Source of the DNA: Pomacea canaliculata | Lineage: Eukaryota > Mollusca > Gastropoda > Architaenioglossa > Ampullariidae | DNA: 64,000 nt | Direction of reading: 5' to 3' | NCBI RefSeq assembly: GCF_003073045.1 | Contig: NC_037596.1 | Coordinates: 15,069,012 to 15,133,011, forward strand | Shown: piece by piece, positions 41-44,887 of the stretch | How the letters are laid out: each line of letters starts with the position of its first letter | Position numbering within the stretch: position 1 is the stretch's first letter | Notes under the pieces: model-generated | What the model was told of the DNA's origin: nothing | Databases searched by the model: none | The model's input: the letters and a program-made list of their open reading frames with translations, nothing else | Translations under genes and position numbers: made by a program

Positions 41-3000
41 ATTACAAATGCTCATTCATACCAACAAGATGGAGTGCCCCTGAGTCCCTGAAAAGAGGCG
101 TGTTCTCTAAAATGTCTGACATGTGGATGATCGGCCATCTACTCTATGAAGTGCTGACGCACGGCCGACTGCCTTATTCTGAGATGAAGCAAAGTGACAC
201 AGAACTGATGCCAATGGTGAGCTACACTTCAAACTTTGTGAAACAGCAAAGTAAAGTAAAAATTGACTTTTTAGGCACACTATCATGTGTTTAAAGTAGC
301 TGAACATTTCTAGTAAGAAAAAAAAAAAGGAAATAGAAGTCGATAAGTTGGCTACACCGGAAATAAACTGTGAAATCCTTGATCTTCATCAACACCAAAC
401 AAATTCAACAAAGGTATGTTTGTCTATGAAGTACTAACAGACATATTGCTACCTAAACTTTCTGTATTATTTTCAACCATTACTATAAGAAAATCCCATA
501 AACTTAAAACTTCCATTCCGCTAATTGAGCTATTCAAGTCGAGTTTAAAGTACTCAAGTACTGTTATATGGAACAGCATTCCATCAGAACTTCATCAAGT
601 TAAATTCAGTCTCTGTCAATTCCAAACAAGTCTCCTAAATATTTATACCACAATTGTTGATTGCTTTTGGGGCCTCCCATACAAAGTAGTCCTCCTTTAC
701 TCAGAAGAAATATTTGTATTTGTATATTTTTGTAATTCCCCAATTTCGTACATATTCTCTGATTTTCTTCTAGTTTTATTATGCCTTTTTTCTCGTAATG
801 TTGAGAATTTAGCTTTGTTTTTATTTGGCGTTAGAGGGCTAGACGTAAAAAGCATAGGTTTAGGTTTTTCTATGACCCTCGTTAATAAAGCTTTGTTAGT
901 TGTCATTTGTTACAAAAAAAAAAAAAGAAAAAACAAAGTAAACGTTCGTATTGATCACCACACTCCGGTGCCGTTGTTTTAAAGGTCATGCCTTACTACT
1001 ACTAATGCCTTATCAACCGAGTCCGTTTCTTTAGTTTATTTTTTCCCCTCCTGTGTTACTTTTAGTCCCACTGTTTGGAATTATCTTTTCATCCCTCTTA
1101 AACAAATCCGTCTCTTTATAAAAGTATCTTGCATAATCAAGAACACTGTTACAATTACTGTAAAGATAATTACTATAAATGCATTTAGTTCATGTTTTCA
1201 ACTGGGGTCTCTTGTTTCTTGAGACTTATGTTTCTTTTACGGACTACTGATTTCGTTTTTCCTATGCAGCATATAAAGTTTGCATCTTTGAAGTGAGTTT
1301 TGCAATCAGCATCAAGTGCATAGACTGTCTGTTAAAGACAAAAAAAAAAAAACACAAAAAAAAACCCCAACCAAACCAAAACAAAAAAAAAATACAAAAA
1401 AACAAAACAAGATAATAACTGAAATATTCATTTTCGGAATGCTCAGGTGGTAGACGGCAGGAGAAGACTTTGTGAAGAAGCGTGTATTCCCGGTCCTGTC
1501 CGCGATCTCATTGTCCAACTGACGACCATACAGACCTCGTCACGTCTAGCAGAAGTCAAGGTTGTCAGCGATGTACTGCACACTCTTCCTATGCAGGATG
1601 GTGAGTGTTTCAAACGCTCTTACAACTGTTATAGGTTATCAGAGGGCATCTTATTCTTATAGAGATTAAATGATCTTTTGCTTATTATACGGTTGGTTGG
1701 TGCTACATTTCCAGTTATCTCAGCACAGCCACAGCAGGGAAGGAGAGAAAGGGAGTTGGAGAAGAAATTGATGTTTTGCTATCAAAGGTACATCACGCAA
1801 AGCAGCCAGCGCTGGAAGCAATGAGATAGGAGAGATAGAAAGAGAAGGGGTAGAAGTGTGATTTTATAAGTGTTTATATATTGTTGATGCAGGCAGTTTT
1901 GCTCCATTCTGAGGACATACATTTTCTGTTAATCAGCAGTCTTTTATCTGAAATTTAAGTCGTGCATCTCAATTAAACTGAGCTAAAATGCCTAGTATAT
2001 ACCTTAGTTGTCCATTTAGCGCGTCTGATGCGCTTAGTGCACTCCAAGCTTTTCTTCTAGCGTATCTGTGTGATGATGTTGAGGCGACTGGCAACTAATC
2101 TCAACATTACTTACTAGATAAGGTCATGGCCCTGTAATATTTCTTACAAAGTGATGTGGTTATTTGCTGTTAAATGATCACTGATAATAGCAGTACAAAA
2201 CAAAGGTTTAAATGTTATTATACATGCATTGCCTCCGCTAGTTATATAATGATATATATATAAACTGCTCATCACAATTTGCTGCAGATTTGAAAAATGC
2301 AACATTTCCAGATATAAGCAGAGAAGGTGAAGGAGCAACAGAACATAAAAAGGTAACTTCGTGTACCACTTTTTATAATGAACTTTGCTGAAAAAAGTGT
2401 TTACATCAAAAAAACTTTCCAGCTTTCAAGCATTTATGCATGACTCACATAGAAATCTTAATCCCGGTCTGTTTAGCATTTAATTTTTCACAAAATCATC
2501 TGTCTGGATCAGTAAAAAGTTATATTAAAGAGTAATGGAAGCTTTTTCACGTGTAAAAGCACTAATACATTTATATGAAATTTTTATGTCGGACATTTCT
2601 AGGGACCTGTGACTACAGTGAATGAGATGTTTTTGAAAAGCAGCGGTAAGTAAAAATAATCAGATTTTTGTTTACTTAACTCGATTTTTAAATTCTTCTC
2701 TTTTTTCTTATAACAGATTATTTTATATCATTTACTCGTTAAAAACTGGCATAATTTTCTTTCTTTCCATTTTCAGATAATATGACGAGAACTGTGATAG
2801 ATCTTCTCGATGATCACAATATTGGCCAAAATGATCACCTGCTGGTAAATGCTCTTTGCGTGTATTTGTCATACTTTAACAGCCCACTTGAAAAAAAGAA
2901 TAAAAATTAATTTGACACTTTGGTTTAGGTCAGTTAAATTAAGACATTACTTTTAGTCAATCAATCCAGCCTCAAAATGTGAATGAGGCAACCGAAAGTT

Positions 3001-6000
3001 CCTTTGAGCCTAAAACAATAAAATATAAAAATATAAATAGTAAACTTTATATTAAAAGGCAGCTGTAACTAGTCAAATCTCGAGGATTTTTGTTAGCTCT
3101 GTACTGTAGCAAGTTTAATTAGGTGAAAGGCATAATTTCTGTGCTATTTTAGTAATTCTTGTTTTTTGCCTCCTTATTTCTTTCTTGTTTTAATAATTTT
3201 GTTTAGCTTATCCTAAATTCTTTCTTTTTTCCCCTTATTTATATTTTGGCCGCCAAAATATTTTTTTCTTAATTAATTTTTATAGTATTTTATTTTTTAT
3301 TTCCTTTTTTTAAGACTCACCAAGAAAAGTTTACAGAAGCATGCCAAGAAGATTTTTGTTTTGTTTTACCACTTCTTACCAAAGATTATCTGCCTGGAAT
3401 ACCCCAGTTGATTGCCCAGCCAAAGACGACCTTAGAGGGAACTGAGATTGTAAGATTTTTCTGTTGCCATCTTTGTTGATTTTGCCACTTTGTAGAAAAC
3501 GTGAACAAAGACACAACATAGAAAAACAAGAAGTAATATTTATGACACACATCCCATGACAAAGGAGCAAATGACGTTACCAAAAATAAGATGAAAACAT
3601 CAGGTTGTCTGACCACTCTGTCATATCGTAAACTGTGAAGAAAATGACATAAGTTGTTACACCTAAACACTTTTGCTTATCCCCTTCACTCCCTTATACA
3701 GCCAATACCGCAAAGCAAGGGGAAAAAATGAAAAGATGAATGATATCTTTATAAGGCTTTGCGCACAGATCGGAAGAGATGGCTTATAAAGACTTTTTGG
3801 GAAAAGTCTTTCGTATTTAAACGTCGGTTAGATGAGTATAATGTATTTCAGAAAGCTGGAAAAGATATGTCAAATGAGCGTTGCCCCTTAGGCTGCTTCT
3901 GAACTTGAGATAAAAAAATCGAGCATGTAAGTAACAGCATAGAAAGCTAGAAGGAACAAAACAAACACTATATCATACATATATAAAAGAAAGTTATGGT
4001 TCTTTACACAGAAGTCAAAATATATTCCTTTTTATTTAATCATATGATGAGAATGTTTATTCCAGATTGCGAAGAATTCTCACGAACTCTTCCTGTAAAA
4101 CTTGTAGGGAAAACTTTTCTCTAGCTGTCTGATTGTTTTGGAGTATGTTAGTGCTATAGCTTATTGCATTAGTTGACTACAGAAAGTAGTTTGATAGAAG
4201 GTGGCCATTTTTATATTTCCAGTAAGAGTATTTACTATTAAAATTTACTTGGTTGAAGGAGCCGAATTTTTCTCCTTAATGCTTTTAGACCCGTTAGTAA
4301 AAACGTTATATTAACCATCTATATCTGCGCCTGGATACGGCCAGTTTTGTTTTTTTTCTCACCGATCCATTTTTAACAAGATGTAGTTAATTTTTTTCTA
4401 GAACTAAGCCTTCTAGAGAGCGTCAAGATGCCGTGTATTCTTTATAAGGTTGGAGGTTGATGGTGACTTAGTGGGACCCATCTCATCACCTAGACCCCGC
4501 CGATATCCGATTGCTTGTCATGGTTTTGATCACTCGAAACTAAGCTTTCAGCAGTGTCTTTTCTGTGAAAAGTTCATTGCACGATGTTAATACTACAATT
4601 TGTTTTTATAATTTTATTTCCTTACAATTTATCTTTACAAAAATTACATATAAAGCAACAGGTCAACTATTAAAAAAATCATTAATTTTCTTAACATATG
4701 GTCCACCAAATAGTTTGTGATTTTTTAGCATCGGAAGGTAGGGATGCTTACGCTAACTACAAAAGTGAAATATCTGTATGGTTAACAAAGTGATGACTGT
4801 AATGGTAATTTCATCATTCGTGTGGAAGAGACAACGAGAAGCACCTTTAATTTTTTTCTGTTTCAGTCTTTTGTCGTTATGGCAGAGAACGGGATGTGTT
4901 CCCTTGAAAAGGCCGTCGAGACAAGATGGCTAGGAAACAGCATCGATAAGTACATCGAGTGTCTTGAAAGAATTGCTTCAGTCATCGCCACTTTACACGC
5001 ACGTCGACTCGTTTTGTGTGATTTTTCTGCAGACATGATCTACATTGAGAAAGATTCAACGTCTGAGCATCTGAAAAATGTACGATTTGCTTTAGTATCT
5101 TTCCATAACCAAAAGTTTTATTATTATAGTTACAGATATGAACTTAATGAAATTGAATAAAAGGCTATAACTCAGTAAAACATTATTAAAAAGTAGCAAT
5201 TTATTCAAATATACTGACAACACCATAGCATTAGTAAAGAGGAATACATAAATCTACAAAAATGCCTTAAAGTATGAGTTTTTATTAGTGTGAGTAGCAA
5301 AATGGTGAACAGATAAACCTTTTATATAGTCTGGTGGTTACGAAAACAGAACAAGTGCCCCACAATTTGTAAAGCTCCAGATTAAAACGATGTATGAACT
5401 CATATGGATGTAGGACTCATTACAAAACCTGGTAATTTGAGGGAATGGTAAATAGTATATCGGATTTGGACCGCTTACCTTCGCACCGCTTGTGAGATTA
5501 TTAGGATAATGGTTTTCTAAATAGCAGTCTTCAAGGAACAAAAAGGATCCAGAAAGATGCTTTGATACTATTTTTTTCTTTGCATTATTATAGTTGTTAT
5601 TTTCCATATCAAATTAAAAAAAATGTTTTCTTTGAATTATTTCACACCCAATGATGCGGTTCGGTGGCGCAATTGTTAGCTTGTTACCAATACAGTGAAG
5701 GTTGTCTGTCTTTGGTTTAGCTCTCGACTCAATCAAGCTGTTCTTTAACTGCATGTGGCATCTGTTTACAAATCAAGCTGTCTTGCTGTGATAAAGCCGT
5801 AGTTGCTGGCACGGCGTAAAACACCAATCCCTCTCCCTTGCCCAGTTATGATGTGCAGTTAACAATTTGCTGACTTGAATACGTAAAACACGAATCAACT
5901 GTAGCTAATAGTACCCTTGACAGGAGTCAAAGGTCAACTCGAGAACTTCCTGAATCAACTGGACCCTACACAAGTAGCTTACTAGAATCCTTACTAGAAT

Positions 6001-9000
6001 CAGAGCAATGTTATTGAATTATAACAAAAGAAATTAGACATGCATACGTCAACCACGAGTGATAGCGTATAATTTCAATCTCACAAAAATGCTTGTACCT
6101 ACAATCTTTTCATGAAAATATTTCCTTACTTTTATCTGCAAAAAGAGAGAGAGAGAGAGAAAAATTAGACTGGTTGAAGTAACATGGACTAGTCTCATCA
6201 TTGCTTTATGTTCATAATAACCGACAACTCTTCGATGTTTACTGTGGTTATCATGCAAATTTTTTAAAAAAAATTCCTGCTGGTAAGCAAGGACTGTCGG
6301 GACATACCCATACTTTAGTGAGGAGTAAAAAGTTTCGAGACCAACTACAAAATAATTATATATATATATGTTATAGCGCATTTAAAATTTATTCTATTTT
6401 ATACACAAGAGCGCAATATCAAATGTAGATGTGTACTAAGTCTTTTAATATGAATTATGTATAAAATACGATACAGCCGATAAGGAATATAAATTGGGTA
6501 TTCTGTTATAGGCATGAGTACGATATTTTCCAAGATGCGAGAGAGCTTTTGAAACTTAAGTACTCGGAAAAAATTAGGATAAAAATTTAACGTTTGTAAA
6601 CTATTGTTTATATAACGAAATAGTACTATTGCCATATTGGCATATCTTTTTTAGCAGGGAATTTATTTTATTTGCAGGTCTGGATTGCATCCATTGCCAA
6701 TATGCGCATCCTCCAGGAGTGCACTGACGAGGAAGATCAGCACAAACAAATGCCTCAACATTGCAAACCCTCTAGCAGGTTGTTATTGATTAGGAATTTT
6801 TCTTTTTCTTCTGCATGAAGAAAAATTTCATAAGATGCTTAAAAGCCACGTGATCTCTTCATCTTAATTGCGTGAAAGTATGTAATTCAACGTGCTTAAA
6901 GGGTTAGTGGTGTCGTTTCGGTTTAAATATCTGAACCAGACCAGCTTACATTAGTATGGTTACCTGGTACACACACCCACATATCGTCATACACTGCATT
7001 ATTGATAAGATTGCTTGCATGAACAGAACTTTACAACTGCCCGCGGAATAAAAAGAAAATACAGTTACTATTAACCTAGTCTTTCAACTGGAAATGTCGC
7101 CAGGATGGCACCAGAAGTTGTCATGGGTGGGCACTACTCACCCTCCTCTGACGTCTTTTGTTTTGGTCACTTGATGAGCTGGCTCTTCGATGCCCTCTAT
7201 AAACCTAAAGATTATATTGGCGACTCTATGTCTTACCATTCTCCAGCAATCCCAGAATCAAAGGTAAGAACATTAGAAGTTTGACTTGTTTAAGAAAGAC
7301 TTTATATAACTCGATAATTATATATCCTATTATTTTCTCCAAAGGTCATTGGGTTTTAGAAACAAGCTACTGTGTATAAAAACTTGTGTCTACAATTTTA
7401 CTAAAATTGCTTCGATTATTCAGTATTATGTTCAATGTTAACTGTTATCAGTCGTTACGAGTAAAAGCACAAAGACGAGGGAGCTACAAGGTCTTTTTTT
7501 AGGCCCACCCAAGAGCAATGGTTACCAGGTCCTACAGGAGATGACCAGTTCATATTTGTTTCTTAACTCCGACTTTTTTTACCACCACGGGGTTGACCTC
7601 ATTGAAAGTTACCTTGGTACTAAACACATTCTTTGACAAAGATTTGTGTCAGACACTATGGCTGGACCAGACTAACTTATGGGAGTTAACTGTTCCGAGT
7701 GGTGGCTTCTGGTGTTTTCTGAGTGTGGGGACCTTGTTTTACATGAACATATTGGTTTCTTTTGTGGTGAATGTCTAGTCTTGTTATTGGGGTTTTGCAT
7801 TCTCCAAGAAAACTACAACCAATTGGTGCTTTGGGTGTGGTCGATGCTTTCTTTACTAATAACCTTTGCCAACTGATGTCATGTTAGGATCATTATTTGG
7901 TCAAAGGGTTGACTACCTTATATTTTGTGGTGTGCCATTTCATACGAACACCAAGCGGCAAGCACGGAAAACTCGTCTTGCTCCAAGAACACAGTGTAGG
8001 ATTTGAGTGAATAAAAGTATTGTTTTGTATATTCTCTAACCATTATCACTTTGTGTATTATTATCATTTTGTGCTTCAAAATGACATTTTTTGCAAATAT
8101 GTCTATAATGACTCTTAGAATAATCTCTTAGGTCACATCAACTGCAGGAGATGAAAAATCTCGCTGACTTTACAAAACGGCAAAACGTTTTCTTGATTTT
8201 GATTTAAAATACAAAGCAACGTCCTACTTCCTATACATAAGTATAATTTTGCTCTAAAGAAACTAAATACACATTGCACAAACATGATAAAGATATCGCA
8301 TTAATTTAACGATATTTTTACAGATCGAGAGAGGAGCCTTGGGCGCTAGGTCATTGCCAATGACACCCTGTGTTTGTACCGACGAAATTTATGGTCTCAT
8401 GGCGCAGTGCTTGAAAGATGCAAAATCTGAGCGAATTTCAATAGAATCTTTGCTTCAAAATCTCCCGAGGCAAGCCCAAATGTGTTTACTTTTATATTAA
8501 CTTGTGCTTGTGTATGTGTATATAATTTATGCACGTAAGAAATAGATAAATACTTGCACAAGGGATAAATAGCGTTTTGTTAATTTCAGAAATATTTTTG
8601 CCAAAACAGATTGAAAGAGTCTCACCTCACAGGAAGCCATTGTAACAACTCAATAGAGGATGATACTTCATCATATAAACCTATTTCGCTTCTGCTAAAT
8701 GAAGAAAACAAGAACACGTATGCTCAAGAGATCCTTTCTAACAACTATCTGCACAAGAACGATTCAAAACAAAAGGTTGTAAGCACTGAGGAAGATTCGA
8801 ACATTTTTCATATGAGTGAAAGATTTAAAAACACACCCTGCGAAGAACATACCAAAAATATGGTTTCCTTTTCGGATGATGCTTTGGACGACTTTGACAG
8901 AAACAATACATCTTATAGCCCAATGAGACAAGTACCGAGTATTTCAAAATATGATGTTAAAAAGAAAGCCTTGCCATCAGTGTTAGAGGGCGAAAAGTTG

Positions 9001-12000
9001 ATTGATATTTTGAGCAATAAGTTACCCACATACGAACGAACAATCATTCCAGAACCAGGAATAGATTTCCAGTGGCCATCAGCAATACGCGGGAATCCAC
9101 CAGTAGATGCTTCTCTAAAGTATTCATCTTTTGAGGGATTTTCACGTAAGTTATTCATTTTTTTATTTTCCACAAAATATTTTGATTCATTATGGTCTAT
9201 AAGTAAGTATAGTTCATTTTATTTTAAGCAAACCAACTCAACGACTAAAGTATTGTCAAAACTAAAGGGATCACAGTTTTATTTTTAATTTACATTTATT
9301 ATTCTTATTAGAAATTCATAAACAGGGTTTCGCTCAGTGGTGTTTAGTGATGTAGCAGCCTGCTAATATGTTACGGGATATTTTTATCTACATATTTCGT
9401 TTTGTTCATTTCCGTGTGTGTTATTTTGGTATATGTGTATAAGATATGAATGTGTGTGTGTGTGTCTTTAAGGTGATATGTGTGTTTATGTTAGAAGTAA
9501 AATAGAATCTATGTAGATATGAGTAAGCGATATTTTAGTGCAATTTTAATAAGCACAAACACTACTTCACACATTTTTTGCTATGGTGATATTTACATAA
9601 AGCTTTTCTTTCTCTACCAGCATTATCTTCATGCAAATCGATGTTGCCACCTTCAGTCCCTTTTCTGCCTGACACACCTATATTCGGTGATCAAGAATGT
9701 ATACGGCTAAGCAATCAGGAAAAAAAATGGCAAGAGCTTATTACTTTAAAAATTCATGGTACAGCCTAAGATAAATATTTTAATTATGGCAAACTTCACA
9801 ATCATTGCTAAGCCCCTTAAATACAAACAGTGTATGTTGACATAATGTGCGATTCATTGGAATGCATTTCTTGAAGATTAATTTAATTTATCCTTCTCAC
9901 AAATTTTACTATAAATCTAACATTTTTCTATCAGCTGATACCCCGTGCAAAATGAAACATACCCACCTACAAAAACTAACAACAGTAAAATAGTTTTGTA
10001 ATGTTTTATGTTGTACGAACAGTAGAGGTGGTAGAATGGTCGATCTGTTGAGGAAAACATTATACAACTTGGATGGTATTTTATTTTAATAAATGGGTTC
10101 TCCAGCGTTACAGAAAACCCAGACTCTAATTGTCCAGTACGGAAAAAAGGAAGAAGTCAGTCAGCCGCCGTTAAAGAATATTTATATGATGTAGAGGAAA
10201 CCTTGTGTAATCTTGTGAATTTGAAGGGTAAGATTTAGAAATTTTCCTTTTTTGGACGTAGTTAATAAATTAACATTTTTTTCAATTATAAATTTTATTA
10301 AAATCTATGCAAACTTAGAGTTTTTGTCGCAACTTTATCTGAAGTAGCATATATACATTTTGGCAACTGCCTGCTTATGCAACAGTCCACAATGGATTTT
10401 CGTTTTGTAGAGGATTGTAAACTAAATACTAGTACAGGGTAGCCCACGTAAATGTAGCTCGGCTCATATATCCAGGCGCCTCACTTTGAGTTTGAGGAGA
10501 ACACTATATTTCTGACACGACAGGCACACGACTGAAAACTCTAACAAGGAAATCAACTTTGTGACTTTGCACACAGGGTTACACCACGTCGCCTGACGGG
10601 GACAGACCTCCTTCATTTCAGAGTGAAGCGCCTGGATAAAGGAGTCGAGGGCTACCTTATATTTTTATTTACCATAGTTAACACCTTCAAATATTTTTAT
10701 ATATTTATGCAGACAATGTATTATGATATTTTTTTTTTCTCAGAAATCAAAGAACGGTCAGGTGCAAAGCTAAGCATTCAAATTTCAAAGCAACCGGGTA
10801 AGAAAACTTTTGCGATCCGTGGCACCCGCAGTCAAATTCAGAAAGCCTTGGAAATGTTAACCACTAGGACAGGGATAAAGGTTTGTTCTTTTTTTGCAAT
10901 CAACTGATTCCTTCTCCAGAGCCATAGTACCCTTTGGTCATATTATAGACCTGACTTAAGTTATATTTCGAATAGATTCGATCAAAACATTGAGCGTTTT
11001 AAAATACCGTAGCTGCGTATCGTACATTTCAATTCGTATAGCATTTATTTTAGAGAGATTACAGTCTTCGAAAAAATGAGTGTTTATTATTTTCCGTTGT
11101 TAGCAAACGAGTATATCATACCTTCAAATAAGTAGTGGAAACATTAATTAAATTTAGAGTAGTAAATTATAACATGTCCAGTGATTTTCTGACATTCTTA
11201 CAATATTTGTATCATTTTTGAAGCTGTTGATCATTTGTAGTCTTTTAGATATACTCATAAAAATGAAGCAAGATCAGAAACATTTTAGAGTTCAAATTGT
11301 GGTATGTTTACCAACAGATAAGATTCAAATCAAAGAAATATTTTAGATATAAAGGTCTTTATCTTCCCTTTCCTCGTTGACAGCTTTATATGAGGGTGGT
11401 TTCTTTGAACTTTTTTGTGCTGCCTTACCTTTACCAATCCTCTTTGGAGTCAGGTACCCATTTCCAACGATCATGGGAAGAGACTTCCGCACTTGGTTGT
11501 TAAAGATGTGTTCGGTGGTGTTGCGGCCGGGATGGATTCGTACCTGCTCTTCAGCTGATATCTTTTCCGCAGCCTCTAGAGCACTTGAACATATTTTTAC
11601 TCGCATGACAAATGCGGCTTATTCTTCGATAGTTTTAGCACATGAGACTTTTACCTTTCTTCGTTAATGGCACCACCAACGACTGCAACCATTCACGTGG
11701 CCACTTCTTAGTTTTGCCAGTTTTTGAGACACAGGTTCGATAGCACTTTCGTCAGTCCCTTGCCCCCTTCTTTGATATGGGTACATCATTGATTTATGCA
11801 GCCTTCCCGGCCTGCACATTACATATTGCCGCATCGACTTCCGCTCGCAGGACTTGTGAAGGCTGTATCTGCACAATGGTTTCATTCGTTTCGATTAGAG
11901 CATTATACAGCTGATCGCAATACTCTTTGAATTTAGGAATTTCGTTTACTTGTGCAATGGATGGCCCTATTTGTTCTCAATTTTTCCACGTCTGCTTTGC

Positions 12001-15000
12001 GGTCTATCGTTCGGAAAGATTATTAGCATAATGAAAGCCTTCCCGTCATCGCCCCATGTTATACCATCATCTATTTCCGAGCATCTGATTTCGACCAGGC
12101 TTTTCTTGAGTCCGTAACTTCCTGTGTGCCTCCTCTGCCTTAAGGCTCATTCGCGTTTGAAGTCTCGTTTTGCTGTGGAGTTTACAAAGATATAGAACTT
12201 AAAGAGAACATAATTAGCACGCAGTCGTACATATGAAGCGATTCTTTAGGCGCACCTACAGCATAACATATCCACGCGCACACGCAGCTAATAATTTACT
12301 TATTATTGGACTGCAGACGTTATAAACGATTACCTGCTATATCTTCATACTTGCAAAACATGATGTTTGCCGGAACTCACTAAAAGAAATTTTGTTTATA
12401 GTACATGTTCTGGTGTGAAGAAGAGTCCAAAATTTAGTATTCATTAAAAGAAGCCAGATTCTTCTTCTTCCCCTCAACTATCTTTAAAAAAAATTCACTG
12501 TTTTCCCGTATATGTAAGCAAAATTTAGAAATTTATTTGAAGAACAGATAAATGAGAAGCAAAACAAATTTAGATATTTTTGAAAAAGCCATTGAATACA
12601 GTAAAGAGAGAAGGAAACGGTTTGGAAGCAGTTAGTCCAAAAACTGGTTATGCAAATTCTTTGATATTAAGTTTTGTCGGGTTGTTATAAACATCACATG
12701 TAAACTGTCCTCAGGATGAAGTTCTGGCGAAAGCGCTAAACGACTGGCTTCACTGGGTTGAAAACTCATTTCCTGACCTCGAACGTCGAGCCCATTTCCT
12801 GCCGCCAGTCTGCATGAGACGAGTACCAACAAGTGAAGATGTGTTTGCAAACCAGAAGGTTTTCTTGCTAGGAGGTAAGCACGACAGCCAAGGGGCACAA
12901 GTTTCTACTCCACTTTCTGTACAGGAGAGTGACATGATGGACGATGAAGCCTTACAGCGAGTCCTCTTCAATCTCACGAAGTTCTCGACTATTTACCCTG
13001 AAGTGTTCATGTGTCTCAGCCAATTTCCGTTTGGCTCGTATCTGGGTGAACAATGCTTTTATCCGGCTTCTTCTCATCTTCCATTGCCCACAAACTTGGA
13101 CTTAACAAAAAAAGTAGAACAGAGCTGTAGGCAAGGTGACTTTGATGTTCTCCTTATTCACAGAGTCTACGGCTTTGTTATAATCGAGATAAAGGCTGTA
13201 GGTTACAACATTGAAAAATCAACTGATAAGCGTCTCGATGTGGCGAAAAAACTGAAACAAGCTGTTACTCAGTTGGACAAAGCGAAAACAATGCTGGAAC
13301 ACCTGGTATCAGACATTGCTCCCGGAGTGCGCATCACTAAATTCATCGCTTGTCCCAATCTACAAACATACCAGCTACACGAAGTCCTGAATATTAATCA
13401 AAACCTGTTAAAGGTTAGTAAAAGTATTTTTGCAAATAATTATAATGCTAATTTTAGAGTAGGTAGAACAAATTTATAAAATGTCTACTGAACTTAAGAA
13501 CTTCACAATTGCTATTATCTTACATGAGGAGCATTTCATACAATGACTGAATGTTAATGCTTTCCAAATTTAGAAGCATTCGAAAATAATATAAAGCACG
13601 TCTAGTTTTTTATTTTCAAAATTAGTTATAAATTAAGTGAATAGAGGCATAGGATACGTAATTACTTTATTATAGATATAACCTCTTGTTTCTATTATTC
13701 AAATACTGTGTGTATTCAACTGATAAATAAAAAATCGTTTATTGTAGGATCTCCATCAATGTTCCGAACGAGCGAATTCCGCTGACGTTTCAAGTATGAT
13801 TCTCTGTGATGATCATCTGTATGCTACTGGAAAATCAGAAAGTGTCAATGACACTAAGATGAAGAATCTGTTAAAGTGGTGGAATGATTTTATTGCTGAA
13901 TATGGACCTGACCCACTGTTACAAAGCCATCCTGACTTGTATAAGAAGCTGATAGCAAGGTAATCATAACAGGTCTCCAATTGTGTATTTTTATGACATT
14001 GCTGAGTTAAACTAAAATCTGAGTGAATAACCTACGTCCTTTTTGAATGCGCAAGATTTCCCCATCCGCGCGTGCATACCCAACGACAGGCCAGCTACTA
14101 CGGGGAGGGAACACAAACCCAACAAAGAAATCGCCGACATGACATATACAATAGAACTAAAACATACTTAAATCATAAGCTGAAGTCTTCTCAGTTATAC
14201 CCAAACGGTTCAGGACGTTTTTCTGCTTAGGACCTTTCTAACACTAACAGGCATTTAGAAGAATACACCACTGCGCGCAATCTTTATTTAAACCCCCTAG
14301 AACAATGACCACATTGTTGTGGCCAGACTATTATAACAACGCTATTAGCAAAATTTCTGACTTTTTGAAGCGAAACACACCAACTCATATTTTTAGTATT
14401 TCAACGGAAATCCGTATTCAGTGTGGAAATCAGAGACTCCTCAAATAGATAATACAACTAATATTAAAATGCGTTATATCTTTGACGTAAAAATATGCAG
14501 TATTGCTGTTGCTAGGGAGTAAGGTATTAATGTAGTGCACTCCTCAGGGCCAGCTTTCCTGCAACGAGAGTATCATCTACTATCCCCACCTCTGCAACAC
14601 AAACCGAAAGCTCTTGAGAAACAATTATAGAGAACTAGAAAATGTCAGAGCTATAAAGCTCTACTCACTGGGTGTGGGTAATTGAATATACGGGAAGGAA
14701 AACCCAATCACATTAGTCTATGCCGTACTTCAGAACACAGACAACCAAACGACTCACTCACAAACTCGCTTACTCACTGTCTCTAAAACACCTGAAACAC
14801 GCATGCGTAATATGCAGTTTTAGACTTGAATCTGAAAATAAAAAAATATCCCTTTAAGAAATGACGCATAAATGAATTAAGGATGAATGACAAACAGGTA
14901 AAGTATAGTTTGAATTAAAAAATTTTGTGTATCAACGAACTATATTTCTTCTATGTATCAGGTTTTGTGGACCAGCCTCTACTGTAAAAGTGCGGTGTAT

Positions 15001-18000
15001 AACAGAGCCTCGTGTGTCCATCAAAACACTAGACCAGGCAGTGGCTATTGTGGGAGATTGTTACACGGCTCATATTGTACTCCATCCAAAGCAACTCAAA
15101 CTCCTACAAAGCTCTTTTCCAAGGGTTTTTATTGCTGGCCCTCCTGGCACAGGGAAAACTGTTGTACTGCTCCTGAAAGCCACAGAATGGTTACTACATG
15201 GCAACAATGTCTGTATTTTGAGTACCTGGGAACGTAGTGTTGCTGCAGCATTCATGATGTACCACCTGCTGAAGCACACACTTTCAACACAACTAAGTAC
15301 TGACAATCCTGGAAGTGTTGAAATGCTAAAGATGAATATTGAAGATGATGAGAGTAAGAAATCAGCCATATTCCATCTTACACAAGCGGCTAGCAAAGGA
15401 CCCCTTTGTGTCATTGCTGATGAAGTCGGACCTATTGCTGAGTGAGTTTGCGAATTATTAAATTCCAACTCAGAATATACTTCTATTTTAAATCTATTTA
15501 TTGCTTTTTGCAAATTTCTCTATTTTTCATTGATGAAGTAGATGACCATGGAAAGACAGTCAGAATGTATTTTTTTTTCAAATCTTTCTAAAAAAAATGG
15601 TTTAATATACTTTTTTTACTTTTGCAGACGGTGTCTAAAAATAATTATGTCAGACTATAGTAACTTTTGGACGAGACAGTAAACATCAATAATAATTTGA
15701 TAAAAATTGAAAATTATTATACGCACGGAAAAATCAACGTATTTTAAAACTGTTATTTCCCCCTAATGATAAAAAGTTTTTTGTTACAGTCACCTCTATA
15801 AGCTTTTCCCGTCTGATTTGGAGCTCTAGCACAGACACAAGTCTTTTACAGCTTGTTCTCCCTTTCCAACCCCAGCAGGACCAGTCGTACTGATATTAGA
15901 AAAGAACACTTTTACAAAGAAAGAAACCTGGACAGAAAATCAGGCCGTTTAAATCTAATAAACATTACGCATAGATGAGCAACACTACTAACTAAATATT
16001 CACATTATTGGATTTACCTTTAGTTTAAACCTTACATATTTAAAAAGATTATTAAAAAACTGACAAGACTCAACAGATTTTTAAGTGAATACGCTCTTCT
16101 AAAAAGTTAGGTCAGAACTCCGAAAACTAATTCTGGTTACACCATCGAAAACAACGGTTAGGTTACTTGCATCATGTAATGAAAGAAAGGAACAGCAAAA
16201 ATAACTCTTAGTCTCAGCCCTGATCTTTACAGTTTATTACTTCGTTTCTTAAAAGAAAAAGCCGATAGAATATAACACTCGCACCCACCCACACCCACAC
16301 CTACCCACTCCCAGGCCTTACTTTTTCCCGTTTCCTGCTTATTAGGTCGATGAAACGATGTTGCTATAGAACTAATACACTATACAATATCTCCTGTAAT
16401 TAGGCCTATAATAAGGAAATAAAGTCACAAAGAATCTGTCAGTCTGATCACCAGTTCTGCTTTTATAGAATAAGTTGTATGCATTAAAGAACATCCATTT
16501 GACCTACAGATAATTTTTTGTTACTAGTATAACGGGATTTCAAATAAAGGTACGTTAAAAGATATGCTTATCTGTCCTCCTCAGACTTCATCGAAGGGAG
16601 GTCAAAATGTGCTGGGTCAACTGTCCGAACATGACAAAATTTATCAAAGTATGGTCTGCACAGGATAAGGCACAGCTGTGCATTGTATTTTTTATTTCGT
16701 TTCCCGCAAACCATTTACCCGAGTGTGGACAACTACGACCACGTGCACAGAAAGATGTTTTAAGCTATATATTTAAAAGTTCATGACATGCTTTGAATCA
16801 ACTATTTCGATCTTGTCGTAACAGGTTTCAGAGTCACATTTTCCCAGAATTTTGCGACGAGCTGGTGCAAAGTAATAAGGAGCAATGTCACATTCTGCAT
16901 TTGTGGGCTGCAAGCTGTCAGCATAATATTGCACCAGTGGAACTACAAGATTCAAATTTAGGAAACTGGGAAATTAAATATTTTACAAAACCACTTCGCT
17001 CACCGCCGTCTGTCATCAGAGAAGTCGAAAGGGCAACGGAAATCAGGCGACGTAAAGTTCTTCGGTATACTGAAAGAGGGGTGCCCGATCATACAGACGG
17101 TCCTCCCGTGAAGTGGATGAATCGCATATGTATGGATCATGATTCCGAAGAAATTAAAGACTGTTTAGTTTGTGGGAGAAATGTGGCCAGCTTCCTGTAT
17201 GAAGAACTCAGGCTGGTTAAGTCCACTGCGCGTAAGTAGTCTTTTAAGCTATGCAAGAAAGGTATCAACCGTAAAGCCTTAATTATTTAATTTTATTACT
17301 ATTATTTCTTACATTTCCAGCTCCCTCGTAACATTAGAAGGGTATCAGAAGTACATTTGCCAGATCAGAGTTTTGACTAAAAAACTATTTTCATACTCCA
17401 CGTCTGTAGGCTGTATAGCAAAGAAAAACGTTTGGAAGTTAAAGTTTATAAAATATTATCTTATTTTAACCTTTCCTGACTGGTAAACTTTGAATGCCAT
17501 TCTTTTAGACAATAATTGTTTTATATTTTTGCCTGACAAATTATATATAATTTAAAGTGTCAATATTTCTTTTTTTGCGTCTCAGTTTAAAATGTCCTTT
17601 TACAGAAAATGTTTGAAAAGAAGGTGAGAGTACTTTCCTATTATTCTAAGCTCGCACAATATTCTCTGGGAGAATAATAGTCTTATTTTTATGTAATAAG
17701 TATAACAAGATTATATTTTATCATTTTATAGATAGGATATCCTCTTTGTCATTTTATTATCTTATTATCAGCAGATAGGACTGTGTCACCTACAACTGAC
17801 AGTTGCTCAGATGAGCGTATTGCTACACCAAATCTCGAGTTTAAAGACGTGATGATTTTGTACCGGGGAGACCTTCGAGAAGATTCCGCCATAATAATGG
17901 CACTCTTGGAAGCCGGTGTGCCAGTAAAGGTGATGAAGGAATCGGACATCGAGGATGTGGCAACAGCTTCCAGTAATGTCTTATGGGCAGCAAGACAACA

Positions 18001-18199
18001 CCTTGTTAACGGCTTGGAGAAAAAAGTCGTGGTATGTCTGGGCAATTATGAAGATAACGATAGTAGGTATCCATCCACCCGACTTCAAGCAATGTCGAGG
18101 TGTTCATCACAGCTGGTAGTTGTGTGCCCTGAAACCAATGGAACTGGTCAACAAAAACTGCAAGGAGCTGCTTTTTCTGTAGAGACAGCTATATGGTGA
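41..18199 (+). CDS. Gene A: kinase/pseudokinase-KH-NERD nuclease-P-loop helicase fusion (5' part outside window)
   Basis: Nineteen exons with agreeing splice phases give 1,444 codons from the left edge to TGA: 41-216, 1447-1600, 2288-2352, 2603-2645, 2777-2844, 3315-3449, 4867-5079, 6678-6778, 7104-7263, 8324-8469 (GC donor), 8610-9145, 9621-9686, 10114-10227, 10744-10880, 12715-13413, 13748-13959, 14962-15441, 16825-17231, 17775-18199. Residues 1-110 are the C-lobe of a Src-like tyrosine kinase (RWSAPESL, SDMWMIGHLLYEVLTHGRLPY). Residues 170-418 are a second kinase-like domain (MAPEVV, SDVFCFG) lacking HRD and DFG. Residues 419-620 look disordered. A basic patch and KH-like fold (620-704, GTRSQ) follow, then a NERD-like nuclease (704-937; GDFDVLLIH, EIK), a P-loop NTPase (GPPGTGKT at 15137-15160; IADEVGP) and an SF1-like C-terminal segment (AMSRCSSQLVVV). 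The nuclease-helicase part matches genes B and C; the kinase part is unique here. Function is not known; nucleic-acid sensing or processing under kinase control is inference. Confidence 0.8.
416..922 (+). mobile_element. 3' end of a non-LTR retrotransposon (LINE), 5'-truncated
   Basis: The reading frame from 416 contains SSLKYSSTVIWNSIPSEL followed by a FQTSLL segment, the typical C-terminus of Jockey/CR1/L2-type LINE polymerases (family pattern: aromatic, then WN-S-LP, then a short helix). After it come AATAAA near 886 and an A-rich tail from 913. It lies in an intron of gene A, between the exons ending at 216 and starting at 1447. The original polymerase stop is not clear, so the open frame continuing to 982 is probably not a separate protein. 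Confidence 0.6.
5655..5839 (+). mobile_element. tRNA-derived SINE, copy 1
   Basis: The head (GGTTCGGTGGCGCAATTGTT) looks like a tRNA A-box region with a degenerate B box about 50 nt later. The body contains GGCATCTGTTTACA, and the tail is TTGCTGGCACGGCGTAAAAC followed by ACCAATCCC. The last ~75 nt match copy 2 (59879-60015) in reverse orientation. It lies in an intron of gene A. No convincing target duplication was seen, suggesting an older insertion than copy 2. Confidence 0.72.
11500..12185 (-). mobile_element. Degenerate LINE reverse-transcriptase fragment, RTE-like
   Basis: Minus-strand frames, interrupted several times, carry in order: QVLRAEVDAAICNVQAGKAA (finger region), KKWPREWLQSLVVPLTKK, NYRRISRICHASKNMFKC, and EEQVRIHPGRNTTEHIFN. 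These are conserved blocks 0-2 of the reverse transcriptase of non-LTR elements often annotated in molluscs as endonuclease-reverse transcriptase. Both ends are lost. It lies in the intron of gene A between the KH and NERD exons. Sequence from 11345 to 11500 continues open but I cannot assign it to the LINE. Confidence 0.68.
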
Positions 18200-18843: not shown

Positions 18844-20093
18844 CAATGGAGCCTTGGTTAACAAACACAATCCGTTCTGGAAAGTTGTTCGTTACTGGAA
18901 ACGATTTTCTCCCATTAGAAATGAAGGAAATAGATTTAATTGGTTCCAAGCCCCTGTTGACTTGCTAATATTTGAACGTTACAGACTATTTGTGTATTTT
19001 TTAATGAGAACAGTTATAATACAATATAAATGGAGCTAAATAAACATAAAAACATTAACGAAAGTATTTAAACATAAGAACACTTGCCGTTTTGACGAAG
19101 TGGGTGGATGGAGGTGTGGAGAGGAAGGGGTGGAATTACTGCTTGGATCCCCCCTCCATGAGCACACGTGACATTGTAAAATCGGGGGGGGGGGGGACTT
19201 CCCTTTTGTGTTGCTTTCAGGTTGAAGGAAAAAACTTTTCCGGTGTCTGTTTACATCTTCCTTTTTTGTAAAACTCCTCGGTAATGCATCACATTACATT
19301 GAACATGTTTATGCTCATATTGCCTAGTTCTTGTACGAACTTCTCGGCCCCTGCCTTGTGGGAACTGGCTGCCTCCCCATGCCTTGTGACGCTGTGGATG
19401 CGTTTTCTGTGCCTAAATTTCTCAAACCAATCTCGACTGGCTTTGAAAATAAAATACCTCGCAGCACTTGTCCTTGGATTTTTCTTCTGCAAATCTTCGT
19501 AGGTTGTCAGCGCCTTCTCACAAATGAACGACTCGCTGATGCTAACACATTTTATCTGTTTCGCGTTTATATACACAAGCAACAACTTTTCTACTTCTTC
19601 CATTATTTTAGGCCTTTGTTTTCTTAAAGTACTCAATCCTTTCGAAACATTAGCTTCTTTAAGCTGCCCATTTTGCTTTAAAATGGTCGAGATTTTCGAC
19701 TTCGACATGCCGTATTTTGCGGCGATATCCGACAAACGCATGCCTTCTTAAACTTTGAAATCATTTCCTTTTTCAATTCATTTGTTGGCCGCTTCCTTGT
19801 CATTACCTCACTCTTATTGCTCCTAATCTATTATTTGGAGCTATGATTAAGGATTATCTTATTGAAATAAAGTAAAAAATCACTTTAGAAGAAGGATGCG
19901 CGTAGATGAGGAACGACCGATCGTAACTGTGTCTCGAGCGCGAATGATGACAGGCTGGTCGGTCACGTGTGGTTCACGTGGCTGCTCATTATCCGAAGTT
20001 TTGTTCGCTATCCGATAAAAATTTTTAACAATTATTTTTTTCTTTATCCGAAATATTCGCTATCCGAGGTGTTCGCTAACCGAGGTTCCACTG
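18844..20093 (-). mobile_element. Tigger/pogo-type DNA transposon, internally deleted, 1.25 kb
   Basis: The termini are inverted repeats: left CAATGGAGCCTTGGTTAACA, right (reverse complement) CAGTGGAACCTCGGTTAGCG, next to TA on the right and CA on the left. On the minus strand a transposase start (MTRKRPTNELKKEM, ATG at 19803) shifts frame near 19745 into MRLSDIAAKYGMSKSKIS, the helix-turn-helix, then a CENP-B-type second domain (YFIFKASRDWFEKFRHR) down to 19289. The DDE catalytic domain is missing, so the copy is non-autonomous. A 13-G run lies at 19184-19196. Confidence 0.85.
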
Positions 20094-24452: not shown

Positions 24453-27400
24453 TTAGCCTTTTTCCGAATCCTGGTCATCGTCTGGTGCAGGACAGACCAC
24501 CACTAACTGTGACGTGCACCTGGACATGGCATATAGTCTTGTGGACGCATACGTGCCGCCACTGTCGTCGTAGTTATCCAGACACACGACAACTTTTCTC
24601 TCTAAGCCACGAACAAGCTGATGTCGCGCCACCCACACCACGTTACTGCTGGCTGTAGCCACGTCCGACAAATCTTCCTCAGAATCACTCATCACTCGGA
24701 CTGGAACTTTGTATGTTGACAGAGCCTTCAGTATACCAGCATCTTCTCGAAGTTCAACCCAAGACAGAAACAGCACGTCTTTGTACTGCAAGACTGGCTG
24801 AGCCCTGCTGCTACTTGAGAAACTTTCTGTGTTGAAAGGCGAATGATTACTCACTGTAAAAATATATGGGGTAAATTATCACAAGGCAAATAAATTTCAT
24901 CCTTGAATAACATGTAATTTAAATAGATGTGTTCGAGAAAAACGTAGAAGTGGATTCCTATAAATACTGATGACACCCATTTAAATACATCCACAAGCAT
25001 TTTTTCTTACAAACACATTTGAATTTTACTTAAGTAAATATATATTTTGGCTAATTACATCTATTAATCCAAAATAGAAGAACTAAACATGCGGAATAAT
25101 ATTAATAAGCTGCCCATTAATTTTTATGAATTATGATTTCTATAATTACTTAATTAACGTACATGGTATAAAGCATAGGGCTCCATAAAGCACTTCAAGT
25201 AAAATTTAAAAAGTTGAAATGCCACCTTTTTTGCATGGGTTTTGAGTTTTACCTATTCTGTACTTATAGAAATGTCCCCTAATATACATATTAACAAAAG
25301 ATTAACTGCTTTTCAAGGATAGATAGTTAAGAAATGCAACAGAAAGAAAAATCAGAATAATTGATAATATTGTAAATGTAATAAGTGTATTTTTTCTGCA
25401 CATAGCTTCTGATTTGCCAGTTTAATAGAATCTGTTTACATCAACTTATTATTTGGAAGTTGTTAAGCTTATCTATTTATATCAGTTAGAGGTACTTCTC
25501 CATAAATAGATCGGAGCAGCCCCCTTCTTTTGAGAGGGTTGATATTATACTGTATACCATTATTAGAAATGCCGTACTTACATAAATCATTTAATAGTTT
25601 ACAATTCACAAAACTCCTTTTCAGCATTTAAATAATCGTGTACTTACAAGTCGTAAAATCCCCAACCTGTAGATCATTTATTAAGAATTTTGCCACTTTC
25701 TTCCCACAACGATTGCAGTCTTCAACTCTTGGTGAGTTATGGTTCTGCTCTTGGTGATACACCCATTTTACGGGAGGACCGTCTGCATGGTCTGCTACAC
25801 CCCGTTGGGTGTACCTAACAACACACCCACGTTTTATTTCCGCTGCCAAACTAATTTCACGGATTACAGGCGGTGGAGAACGAAGTGGTCTGGTGAATGT
25901 TTCGAGTTTCCATCCCTCATCAGGTGCGGGTTTATAGTTGTAACTTGCAGCCCACAGGTACAAATCAACGCTATCCTTTTTTCCCTTCAAACGATCCACT
26001 AGACTGGCGCAGAAATCAGAAAATGCATAGTCCTCGAACCTGTTTTGACAAGAAGATGAAAAAGTTGGTTTCGACATTTCACCGAATTGGTAATGTTTAC
26101 GTGTTGTTCCACTAATACTTTAATACATAACAGACAAAATCTCACAAACTATGAGCTCTCTGAAGCTCTTATATATATATATACAAACACACATGACAAA
26201 TAATAAAAGTTTAAAGAGTGTTAAAGCAGCCAGAAAGTCTTTCTCTCTTTCGCTATTGTGTGGGGTCATTGTCAAATCCTCTGCTATACGAACTTCTGGA
26301 AAAGTGAAAATTTAGCCTCACTTACTCTAAATCAGGACCTACTTCGTCGGCGATGACGTGCAATGGTTTATCTCTAGCCATCTTTTCAAGCTCGTCCAGA
26401 GTGTTTTCTACATCCTTGTTGCCTTTGAAATTCTTCTTTATTATGTGTACTTGTCCACATGCAGAAGATTCTGTATTTTGCTTACAAAGTATATCCTGTA
26501 GCAGATAAAATAGCATAAATGATGCTGCAAGACTTCGGTCCCACGTGCTCAAGACGTAGACATTGTTGCCCTCTAGTAACCAGTTCACGGCTTTTAGGAG
26601 CAATACAACACTTTTTCCTGTGCCAGGTGGGCCAGCAATGAACACCTTTGGAGGGCCGTTGACAAGCAGATCAATCTGCTCAGGGAACAGTGTGATATGA
26701 GCCGTGTAACAGTATCCCACGTGGGCCACTGCCTGGTCCCAGGTTTTAATGGAAACACGAGGCGCATTTATACTGGGAACAGTCACTGTAGACGCTGGTC
26801 CGCAAAACCTGATATATCAAAATACCGAAATTTTATATTTATAAATTAACCTAAAAAGTTAAATACAGTACGAATGACTATTAATTACTACTACATATTT
26901 ATTGTTTATCATTTACATCCAATCTTACCACTTTTACAGCAATGTCATATTCGTTTTTGTATTATGCAAATGCGTAAAAAGCGACGAAGTGAAGATTTAA
27001 CTGCATTTTTGTTACAACAGCATCAATAGATCGCTAGCTACAGCACAACATGTTCTGATGGTGTATGTTTTACCTAGCTATCAGTGTCTTATACAAGTCG
27101 GGTTCGCTGCTTAATTGTAAATCATATCCTAGTTCAACCACATGTTCTTGCCACCACTGGTTTATCTCCATTTCCTGATATCCGATGCTTTGAGACGTTT
27201 TCTCATCTCTCTCTTGTTGTGGTAAGCATAAACGATCAGAACAAAGAAACATGCGGCTAATGTTCGAAGAATCCTCCATCTGTAAGCATTCACATAGATC
27301 CTGAAATGAAAATTAAATGACAATCAGATAAATAGCAATCAGAAAATAAAAGATTATTTAGTTATATGTCCTCGTTTTTAGCTCCTTCCTTCTGGCAGTT

Positions 27401-29846
27401 TTCTCTGAATATGGATTATCAGCTTTACGATCATAAGCCATCGAAGTCATTGAGATCTTAGCATGCCTATTTCCCTTAGTAACAACGGTTTTCCTTTTCA
27501 TATTTAACAAAAAAATCGTGTGACATATTTCCAAACACGGTTTGAAGTTTCCTCCCAATGCAGACTGCTTAATGCATCTAAATTTTTAACGAAAACAGAG
27601 TTACATCTTTAGGTGTGCTTCATAAATTACTAAGACAAGGTAGACGGTATGCAATTTCTTTTTCTTTAAAAATAAGAATTTGCTCCTAACCTGTTCCAGC
27701 TTTGGATTCTGAAAAATTATTTGCTGCATTTGGTGGGTGGTAATATTTGGGCATGCAATTGTTGTGGTGATTCGAATGCCAGTAGCTATATCAGACACCA
27801 GATGTTTCAACATGGCTTCTGCTTTCTTTAAATGTTCTGCAGCTTCTTTCAGTTTCTTTGTCACTCTTGCCACCTGTTTTTCTTGCTCCTCTGCTACGGT
27901 GTTGTAGCTAACAGCCTTCACCTCGCAAATAACAAAACCGTAGTTTTTGTGAATGAGAAGAACATTAAAGTCACCTTGCCTCCAGCTCCATGGCAGTGTT
28001 TTGGGCAGGTTGCTGGGTAACGGCAATTGGGCAGCTGCCTTAGCAAAACGCTGTTCTCCTAGATATGATCCAAACGAAAACTGACTTAGACATATAAATG
28101 TTTCTCTTTGTTTCATCGAGAATGTCTTCAAAGTAAGCAGCACTCGCTGTAAGGCTTCGTCAAAACCCACATCACTTTCCTGGGCAGAAGCACGTGGAAA
28201 GGTCGCTGAATAATCTGTCACCTGTTTTTGGCTATGGAGAACAAAGACATCTTGACCTGCTACTGTTTGCTTTGTCATAGGCACTCGAGCAATGTAGACT
28301 GGCGGTAGGAAGTATGTCTTAGTTTCATAGTGAGGAAATGCTTCTTCAACCCATTGAAGCCAATATCTCTTCGCGTCTATTCTGATGGCATCCTGGAAAA
28401 TTAGTGCACAAAGTGTAGATAATAAAAGAAAATACTATTTTTGTAGATATAAAGAATGTGTTGTCCATCTCATCAATTTGTCTCTACATACGTCTACCAG
28501 TAAAAGACAAATTCAACGTCAGTTGGGTTGTTTACACTAACTAAAATGTTTTTTGGATGGCCAAAAGTGACATTCAGATAATGTAAAAAGAATTTTTAAA
28601 AGTATCTGAAATTCTACTTAATGATAGGCATGCAAAAGGTTTTGTCAGCGATCTTAAGACATCCAAATCTTTGTTCTTATGGTATTGTTGATTGGCAATG
28701 TGTTATTCAAACACCTCTTCCTTATGGAGCGGCTACTACTTGTCCTCTAGGTTATATGAGATATTATCTGATTTAAGCAACTTTTGGTGTAATAATGTTT
28801 TTGTTAATTAAAACATTGAAGATTACAGACTGCATGAATATATTTATTGCCTTTAAGAATGGTAAAACCAACCTGTTCGCCTGTCATTTCAGTAATAAGT
28901 CGAACAGCTTCTCGACATTGACTGCGAGTGCCTCGGATCACAATGGATCTTATTCCCTCTGTAGATGGTTCGATATCAAACTCTGCACTCGATAACTTTT
29001 TGACATCTTAAATTAGATAAAATAATAAAAGCTTAATTTTGTGTCTAAACATAAAGATATTTATATCCTTATAAAATATCAAACGTTGAACCTTTACCTA
29101 CCACTTTCTTACTGAGCAATGTATATTGATTAAGGTAGTTTAATGATGCATATAAGATGTATAATGACAGTATAGTTAAGTTTTACTGTAAAAAGAGCCA
29201 TCTAAAAAGGTGGTATATGTATAAAATACCGCATCTAATAGTTATTGATATTATCACTGGGACACATACATTAATAGAAAAAAGTATGCTTGATCTCTAA
29301 TTGATAACGTGTAACACACAAAGATGGCTGCTGCAAAGCCACTACATATTTTCGAATAAAAAGTTAAAACAGATGTGTGTGTCTATATATATATATAGAT
29401 ATACCTGGGAGTCGTATCCTATTAAAAAGGCTGTCTGAAACAGTGTACACGAAGTCAATAATTGATGTCCACCTTTCACGTTGCTTTCTTTTGCTAGATC
29501 GACCCACTGTTTCTTGATCAGTGTGGTCCATTTTATGATGATCAATCTGTATGTTAGACAATAATCAAGAAAAATTTTTTTTTATTCAAATTCAGTCTGT
29601 AAATTTTAAATTTTAGACGAAAATTAAATATTCATTGCTAATAGTTATGATTGCTATACACTTTTACACATTAACAGGCCAATGCCATATATATATATAA
29701 AGATGAATGTGACACTGACCAAATGTTTATGTAACAATGTGAGTAAAAAATAGTAGAACACACGTCCTATTCGTATACATAAATACTATAAAAAATACAG
29801 TATGTTTGAAGCTTACCAAGTGTCGACCGTCGTTCTTTGTTGACAT
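24453..29846 (-). CDS. Gene B: KH-NERD nuclease-P-loop helicase protein, 836 aa
   Basis: Eight exons (high to low) keep frame throughout: 29846-29817, 29546-29405, 29006-28873, 28392-27691, 27300-27074, 26808-26326, 26039-25648, 24853-24453. The first exon encodes only MSTKNDGRHL and joins in phase 0 to the basic exon (SSKRKQRER). A start at the internal Met at 29531 is the alternative. Residues 57-102 are the KH-like segment (IVIRGTRSQ). Residues 102-336 hold the NERD-like nuclease, with EVK kept but GDFN where A and C have GDFD, so the likely catalytic Asp is Asn. Residues 411-572 hold the P-loop NTPase (GPPGTGKS at 26610-26633; HVIADEVGP). Residues 572-703 hold the FTRPLRSPPPVIREI block and a CNRCG pair. 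The end is SF1-like (AMSRCTSQLVVV) with an acidic tail. No kinase exon is seen upstream. Orientation is opposite to A and the same as C. Nuclease activity is doubtful; ATPase residues look intact. Confidence 0.85.
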
Positions 29847-31639
29847 TTACAATACTCCATTTCCAACACGTTGATGTGTTGCGTAGCATATCGTATACAA
29901 GTACAATCCTCGGTCTTTATGTCAATAGGTAAGCCACCTAAGTCCACTTTTATGTATTATCCCTGCAAGTTCATGTTAGTTTACTAGTAATCCTTATCTA
30001 AAGTCGTTTGCTATCGAAGGAATGTATTCTACAGTTATCGTTTGACTGTTCTTGGTTTCAACACTTTTAGGCCTAAGCCTAAAGGTTTATTTGCCTTCTC
30101 TGCGTCACTACGCTTTTTTTCCCGGTACTTTAGCGTTTTCTGTGTAAAACGCCATAATAAAGAAATGATGCTTAGGTGACATCTAAGACGTAGAAGATGT
30201 CTAGGACGACATTGCGCTAAAAAAAATGAAGATGTTTTTACCGCTCTCTACAAAATTCGGCCTAAGCCTGTCATGGGTCTTAAACATGACTGCATGTAAA
30301 CTGTCCCCGACCGTTGTAAGTTTCTTTCTAGCATACCTATATTTTTTTTAAAAAAAAGTAGGGGGAAATTAGCCTACTATTAAAAAAAACTATGTTCACT
30401 AAAAATTGCTGTCATTAAAAAATTGCTGTCAGTTTACTAATCATTTTTACTGGGTGGCTTCCTCTTTTATAAGCTCTCTGAAAAACTTATAAGAATTTTC
30501 CTTGTAGGCTGGATTGACATGTGCATTATTATAAATTAATATAAACAAAATCCAGCACTTCACAGATAATGTTTCGTTTTAAATTACACTTTTCAATGCC
30601 TGATTTAGTTTATAAATTAAGGTATTTTGGAGATTATTTAAAGAACGAAATGTAATTTGCAGAAATAGCTGAATGTTTGTCCATCATGTAACACTTACAG
30701 TTTATACAAATAGCAGTTAGCTGCCTAAACGAGAGACGTTACCAGGGGAACGAATATATTATAGTACTCTAAAGCGTCAGATAAAGAGAGCTTAAGAAAG
30801 TCCGTACAGAGCAAACCGGTCAGACAACAGTACTAGACACTGGCTTCAATGTTTAGCCGTCCCCATGGTAAATAATATATACATTCGGTGCTCGGGTCAG
30901 GGGATAAGCAGGGTAGTAAACAGAGCCGTAACTTTACACAACAGTAGACATTATCAAAGCTGCTCCAGTAGAGTCTTAACTGCAAAGGTTTTCAAGTAAA
31001 CAAACTGCGTTTTAGAGACGAGGTCGGAACGCTTCGAGGTTTTGATAGAGCAATATCTCAAGGGTCTGGAGCATTAATATATTTTGCTTTAAAATTTATC
31101 GATGAAGCCATTAATTTGGAAGCACTTTGACGTGGTCGACACGTTTACAGAATATTACGCCATTTGCTTGAAGCAGCGATGACCTTGTGGTTCAGAACAC
31201 TATCTGTCACATAGTTCAGAGTGGCTGATATCCGAGAGGAAGATATACGACGACCAGCTTTATAATACACCTGGACATGTAGCTATTCAGCTCAGTGACG
31301 ACTTTTTGTTAAGCCGTAAACCATTTAGCATTAAACAGTCCATACAATATCACTATGGGCTGCAGCCATAAGATTGATTTGTAATATGGAGTCCTTCATA
31401 ATTTGTTTTCGGCTCCAACCATCCCTCAGTGCCTTTAAAGATTAAGATGTTCTGATGAATTGTAACCCAGAAAGTTCGTGTATCACAAGCAAATTATGGA
31501 TCTACTCTTAAAGGTAAAATTATATGTGTTGCATTGTCCGCCTACAATAATGAATTCCTAAGAAAAAATAGTACAGACATCCTAGAATGAAAAATATCTA
31601 AAGCGATTAACGTTAAGAGTGCTGTATTGAAATATCCAT
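29847..31639. other. Spacer upstream of gene B
   Basis: The presumed promoter of gene B lies just above 29850 on the minus strand; no TATA box stands out. The rest shows no coding content. Confidence 0.4.

Positions 31640-34042: not shown

Positions 34043-34099
<57 letters not shown>
33890..34099 (+). mobile_element. L2/CR1-like retroposon 3' end with ATT-repeat tail
   Basis: The segment ending AAATTTTGGAAAGGCGCTTT, then TTGTAAATCCTAATTATT, matches the usual 3' terminus of L2-type LINEs and their dependent SINEs (GAAAAGGCGCTATATAAAT plus a short tandem repeat). It runs directly into 58 bp of ATT repeats (34042-34099). No polymerase is recognisable upstream, so it may be a severely truncated LINE or a SINE. 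Confidence 0.55.

Positions 34100-39722: not shown

Positions 39723-44887
<5,165 letters not shown>

Follow-up and report, generated by a model that had tools for sequence, protein, structure and literature searches.

A predicted gene of the apple snail Pomacea canaliculata that joins two kinase-like domains to a KH-NERD-helicase module

A tandem of tyrosine-kinase-like domains and a KH-NERD-helicase module appear to be parts of one gene in the snail Pomacea canaliculata. The gene lies across the start of a 64,000-nucleotide stretch of contig NC_037596.1 (forward strand, positions 15,069,012 to 15,133,011), called the window below; plain positions are those of the window, and positions on the contig carry the prefix C7. 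That a single fused gene runs from the kinase tandem to the helicase is well supported by the sequence. I propose further, with a probability of about 0.6, that this is a real fusion gene in which a pseudokinase scaffold would control a KH-NERD-helicase effector.

The first-pass annotation had nineteen exons staying in phase from position 41 to position 18199, and this is borne out. With anchors taken from the window sequence, the nineteen plus-strand exons splice into 1469 codons that contain the final stop and no other. Every acceptor (19 of 19) is AG, and the internal donors are GT in 17 of 18 cases and GC in one, at 8470. One NCBI model, P0001 (LOC112567904 isoform X2, uncharacterized, 2043 aa), matches the spliced exons over 100% of their length at 99% identity in a homolog search. 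P0001 was modelled from the same DNA and assembly as the window and brings no independent sequence, so alone it is weak evidence for a fusion. The two differ at two joins. P0001 ends the exon at 9621 sooner, at another GC donor near 9729, and resumes at 10106, where the splice used here runs from 9758 to 10114; its last exon starts at 17775 rather than 17772.

The window begins within LOC112567904, inside kinase 1, and holds part of the gene only. Six matched stretches in the 20 kb upstream correspond, in order, to residues 7-582 of P0001, and the matched exons of P0001 are colinear on a single contig. The whole gene spans about C7:15058774-15087210 (+), some 28 kb, so that its first 10 kb or so lie upstream of the window. 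Pfam finds no match in the N-terminal 420 residues of P0001; in the rest it finds two tyrosine-kinase-like stretches, a KH domain and a P-loop NTPase.

The KH-NERD-helicase half follows a linker of two exons, 8610..9145 and 9621..9758. The first part of the KH domain is encoded at 10114..10227, in a frame that runs back to an upstream stop without a Met, and its core at 10744..10880. The KH type I exon passes the Pfam gathering score (PF00013, 23.4 against 21.5 bits), while the KH of a second NCBI model, P0011, falls below it at 12.7. By eye, the GXXG loop that binds nucleic acid is a gap in P0001, P0003 and P0004 and reads GAGG in P0005. The NERD-like nuclease domain occupies a single exon, 12715..13413, which lies under the gathering score (PF08378, 17.6 against 22.1 bits); of seven paralogs, five match PF08378 at E up to 1, the best at 2.7e-4. 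The D and ExK residues of a PD-(D/E)XK nuclease are intact in P0001 (GDFDVLLIHRVYGFVIIEIK), at a site, GDFD...EIK, whose computed position is 13135..13194. An exon at 13748..13959 joins NERD to the helicase, which is spread over 14962..15441, 16825..17231 and 17772..18199, the last carrying the stop. Walker A (GPPGTGKT, at 15137-15160 and residue 1666 of P0001), a DE box (ADE, by eye, in the first helicase exon) and the motif VI Arg (SRCSSQL, residue 2010, in the last exon) are all present, as in a helicase of SF1/UvrD type. In the layout of kinase, kinase, KH, NERD and helicase given by the first-pass annotation, the kinase-1 C-lobe and KH exons pass Pfam, and NERD and the kinase-2 exons taken singly score below cut-off (19.8 and 18 against 23.1 bits for the latter).

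Stand-alone relatives of this half lie on the minus strand of the same window. Copy 2 (24453..29531) has its own ATG exon, starting at about 29531, and copy 3 (39723..44887; LOC112567909, P0004, 820 aa) also lacks the kinases. At 27697-28398 (-) the NERD of copy 2 reads GDFN, with N for the catalytic D, and its nuclease is probably dead. Between the two copies a scrap of helicase C-terminus with in-frame stops, at 31237-31474 (-), is a pseudogene fragment. The remainder of the window is varied. An ORF at 19289-19747 (-) encodes a Tc5-type transposase DNA-binding domain (24.4 bits against a Pfam cut-off of 22.2); ORFs at 34899-36520 (-) resemble extracellular Ig-like domains by eye, with no Pfam match above cut-off; and two ORFs, 51073-52229 (+) and 58799-59143 (+), share by eye a cysteine-rich repeat for which no convincing Pfam match was found, one of them also having a transmembrane-like stretch. 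Long microsatellites of the AAT/ATT type occur at 34043-34099, 40210-40329, 45311-45376 and 46475-46669.

The family extends well beyond the window. A genome search with P0004, in which 55 of 1721 candidates were scored, gave at least 72 match rows and at least 53 NERD exons, on C6, C7, C10, C11 and C14, five of them with an internal stop. The NERD exons of the window gene and of its sister locus Y, described below, are missing among the matches listed, so the count is a lower bound. Many of the NERD exons in that search, mostly in open frames of about 260-300 aa, lie on C11, on C14 and at C7:17.1-17.5 Mb. The fused gene may be a member of a large, little-studied gene family of a defence type.

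How often is such a module attached to kinases? A genome search with kinase 2 (18 of 18 candidates scored) gave 14 match rows, located in the window gene (Z), in two other loci on the same contig, Y (C7:15009405-15025787) and W (C7:15399404 onward), and in two places on C4. Locus Y has, on a single strand, the N-terminus, both kinases, linker, KH, NERD, the middle segment and three helicase exons. The 9.8 kb of W that were compared contain kinase 2, KH, NERD, the middle segment and the first helicase exon, with kinase 1 and the later helicase exons outside this stretch or unmatched. In both, kinase 2, KH, NERD and helicase have the order and strand they have in Z, at about 39-65% identity to P0001. 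Since nearby sister copies keep the same layout, the fusion looks real. Kinases also occur alone: down to position 18200000 of C4, tblastn at E up to 1e-3 found no KH, NERD or helicase beside the two kinase-tandem copies there, and likewise none, down to C7:15009011, beside copy X, which has kinase 1 and a single kinase-2 match. The NCBI model P0011 (LOC112568022, C7:14942234-15025787) takes its first 718 or so residues from X and the rest from Y, despite Y's own N-terminal exons. Because those residues fit X better than Y, P0011 joins two loci and is likely a chimeric model.

Such a mixed collection could be read as a decaying array, in which the fused copies are functionless by-products of duplication. 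The NERD exon of Y contains one frame break in this assembly, at the point where P0011 ends; locus X shows no KH, NERD or helicase and a single kinase-2 match; the scrap near 31237-31474 has stops; and the catalytic residues of NERD are altered not only in copy 2 but at 2 of the 11 sites that a pattern search of NCBI proteins turned up (in P0008 and P0010). Yet the other nine of those sites, P0001 included and P0002 contributing two sites to the eleven, keep D and ExK, as do the NERD domains of Y and W. Where the exons for KH, NERD and helicase in Y and W were aligned with P0001 (identity about 41-58%), the matches listed contain no stop, the single frame break in Y apart, and the window gene is open throughout with its NERD and Walker A motifs preserved. 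Decay is the best of the alternatives but an improbable one.

What of the kinases themselves? Kinase 1 enters the window with its C-lobe exon (41..216), which scores above the Pfam gathering threshold, its N-lobe, HRD loop and SGL motif lying upstream, and ends in the exon at 1447..1600. Three exons of linker (2288..2352, 2603..2645 and 2777..2844) lead to kinase 2, encoded at 3315..3449, 4867..5079 (LCDFSADM in place of HRDLxxxN, by alignment), 6678..6778 (ASI in place of DFG, by eye), 7104..7263 (the MAPE segment) and 8324..8469 (its C-terminal part, followed by the GC donor). Catalysis by a kinase requires the VAIK Lys and the DFG Asp. P0001, P0011 and a Littorina saxatilis protein, P0012, were aligned and read by eye. 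In kinase 1 all three have His at the VAIK Lys and have lost the DFG Asp (SGL, SGL and AGF, respectively). In kinase 2 LCDF replaces HRDL, and the DFG Asp is again lost in each (ASI, GSL and TSL). By this reading of motifs, neither kinase of P0001 has the full set of residues of an active protein kinase, and both are probably pseudokinases.

It might be countered that kinase 1 is active with an unusual site, and that phosphorylation is coupled to cleavage, much as the first-pass annotation supposed. The Pfam kinase match in P0001 is strong (E 8.5e-48), the HRD loop is intact in P0001 (HRDLTAAN) and kept in P0012, and there are active kinases among those without canonical residues. Against this stand the His for Lys and the missing DFG Asp in three of three proteins, and P0011 has lost the HRD Asp as well, reading HRH. 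I consider an active kinase 1 marginally less probable even than decay. Of the earlier proposal, then, the single fused gene is well supported, and the link to phosphorylation finds no support in the form given there, both kinases lacking catalytic residues.

The junction between the two halves deserves separate attention. An in-frame Met is absent from the first KH exon in all three fused loci and present in three of the four stand-alone loci near the window, which are those compared (copies 2, 3 and S1, the exception being S2); given S2, a missing start in this exon is not exclusive to fused loci. P0001 itself has no Met between residues 1189 and 1294. The least probable alternative, that a kinase gene and an adjacent KH-NERD-helicase gene are joined by nothing but annotation read-through, can appeal to the stand-alone KH-NERD-helicase genes common beside LOC112567904, to the kinase tandems on C4 that lack that half, to S2 and to a join placed in a linker whose splice sites vary, but it sits badly with the Met-free frames at the junction, with an order common to three loci and with the two NCBI models that cross from kinase to KH, P0001 and P0011 (the latter in Y).

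A fusion gene with a pseudokinase scaffold probably arose as follows. A gene for the kinase tandem, composed of an N-terminal region of unknown fold and two tyrosine-kinase-like domains, would have captured a KH-NERD-helicase gene of its neighbourhood before Z, Y and W diverged. At the level of DNA the captured half is entered through a splice acceptor, its first KH exon having no in-frame start codon. In the product, the pseudokinase tandem would sense or dock a signal, most likely as a scaffold or sensor; KH and helicase would engage nucleic acid and move along it; and NERD, with its intact D...ExK, would cut it. The whole would serve innate immunity or transposon control as a nuclease effector under regulation, functionally like PglW or DndF. 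The grounds for an immune role are analogy and the size of the family, and I offer it tentatively, as rather less probable than the fusion itself.

The first-pass annotation knew of no described protein that joins kinase and NERD, but bacteria possess them. According to two papers (PMC4365076, PMC12839542), PglW of the BREX type 2 or Pgl system and a subset of DndF, from DndFGH, combine NERD, an inactive kinase and a second, active kinase in one protein. P0001 resembles them in having NERD and two kinase domains, a pseudokinase among them. It differs from PglW in that NERD is C-terminal rather than N-terminal, both kinases look dead where one of PglW's is active, and KH and helicase are added. 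Membership of the PglW family was considered and rejected: the PglW profile matches P0001 in the kinase region only, where it scores 28.8 bits and the family cut-off is 990. With a match so far below cut-off P0001 is not PglW, though by analogy the snail fusion protein may work like it. In the open-licence literature searched, no account of an animal NERD-kinase fusion, nor of this locus, was found.

Two animal comparisons bear on the kinase half. The best PDB match of kinase 1 is an EGFR chain and the second, at 97.7 bits, is PTK7, an inactive tyrosine kinase that, like kinase 1, has no DFG Asp in the alignment. PTK7 is a receptor; Pfam finds no receptor part in P0001. The Littorina protein P0012 (1658 aa) is 31% identical to P0001 over 1061 alignment columns that take in the N-terminal region and both kinases, but it ends in a proline-rich tail and has no KH, NERD or helicase match.

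The KH-NERD-helicase half leads elsewhere, to group III Schlafens (SLFN11, SLFN14), which provide the top seven Foldseek matches of a KH-NERD-helicase model (E 4e-12 to 1e-7). The alignment spans the Schlafen linker and helicase, in a model of mean pLDDT 66.8 with an rmsd near 10, and the match to the linker is structural only. In sequence there is a weak profile match at the last helicase motifs, and the SLFN-g3 helicase family (PF09848) scores 15.3-15.8 against a cut-off of 24 bits. Unlike these Schlafens, P0001 has KH in place of the Slfn core domain, for which Pfam gave no match at E up to 10 (HMMER filters drop most above 0.1). Within the open-licence literature searched, only PMC12839542 mentions Schlafen and NERD together. 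It is a doubtful extension that an animal counterpart of PglW and DndF arose independently in apple snails, and that the expanded family from which its nuclease came preserves in active form a domain that survives in Schlafens as a dead linker.

If the gene is transcribed as modelled, an animal has joined a NERD nuclease to two kinase-like domains, the ingredients of bacterial defence against phage, in an order that differs from the bacterial one and presumably of independent origin. The sequenced genome of an invasive snail would also hold a large KH-NERD-helicase family of which no description was found in the open-licence literature. Finally, the comparison supplies a testable idea about where the linker domain of Schlafens came from: if the linker is a dead remnant of a NERD domain, Schlafens would descend from NERD-helicase nucleases.
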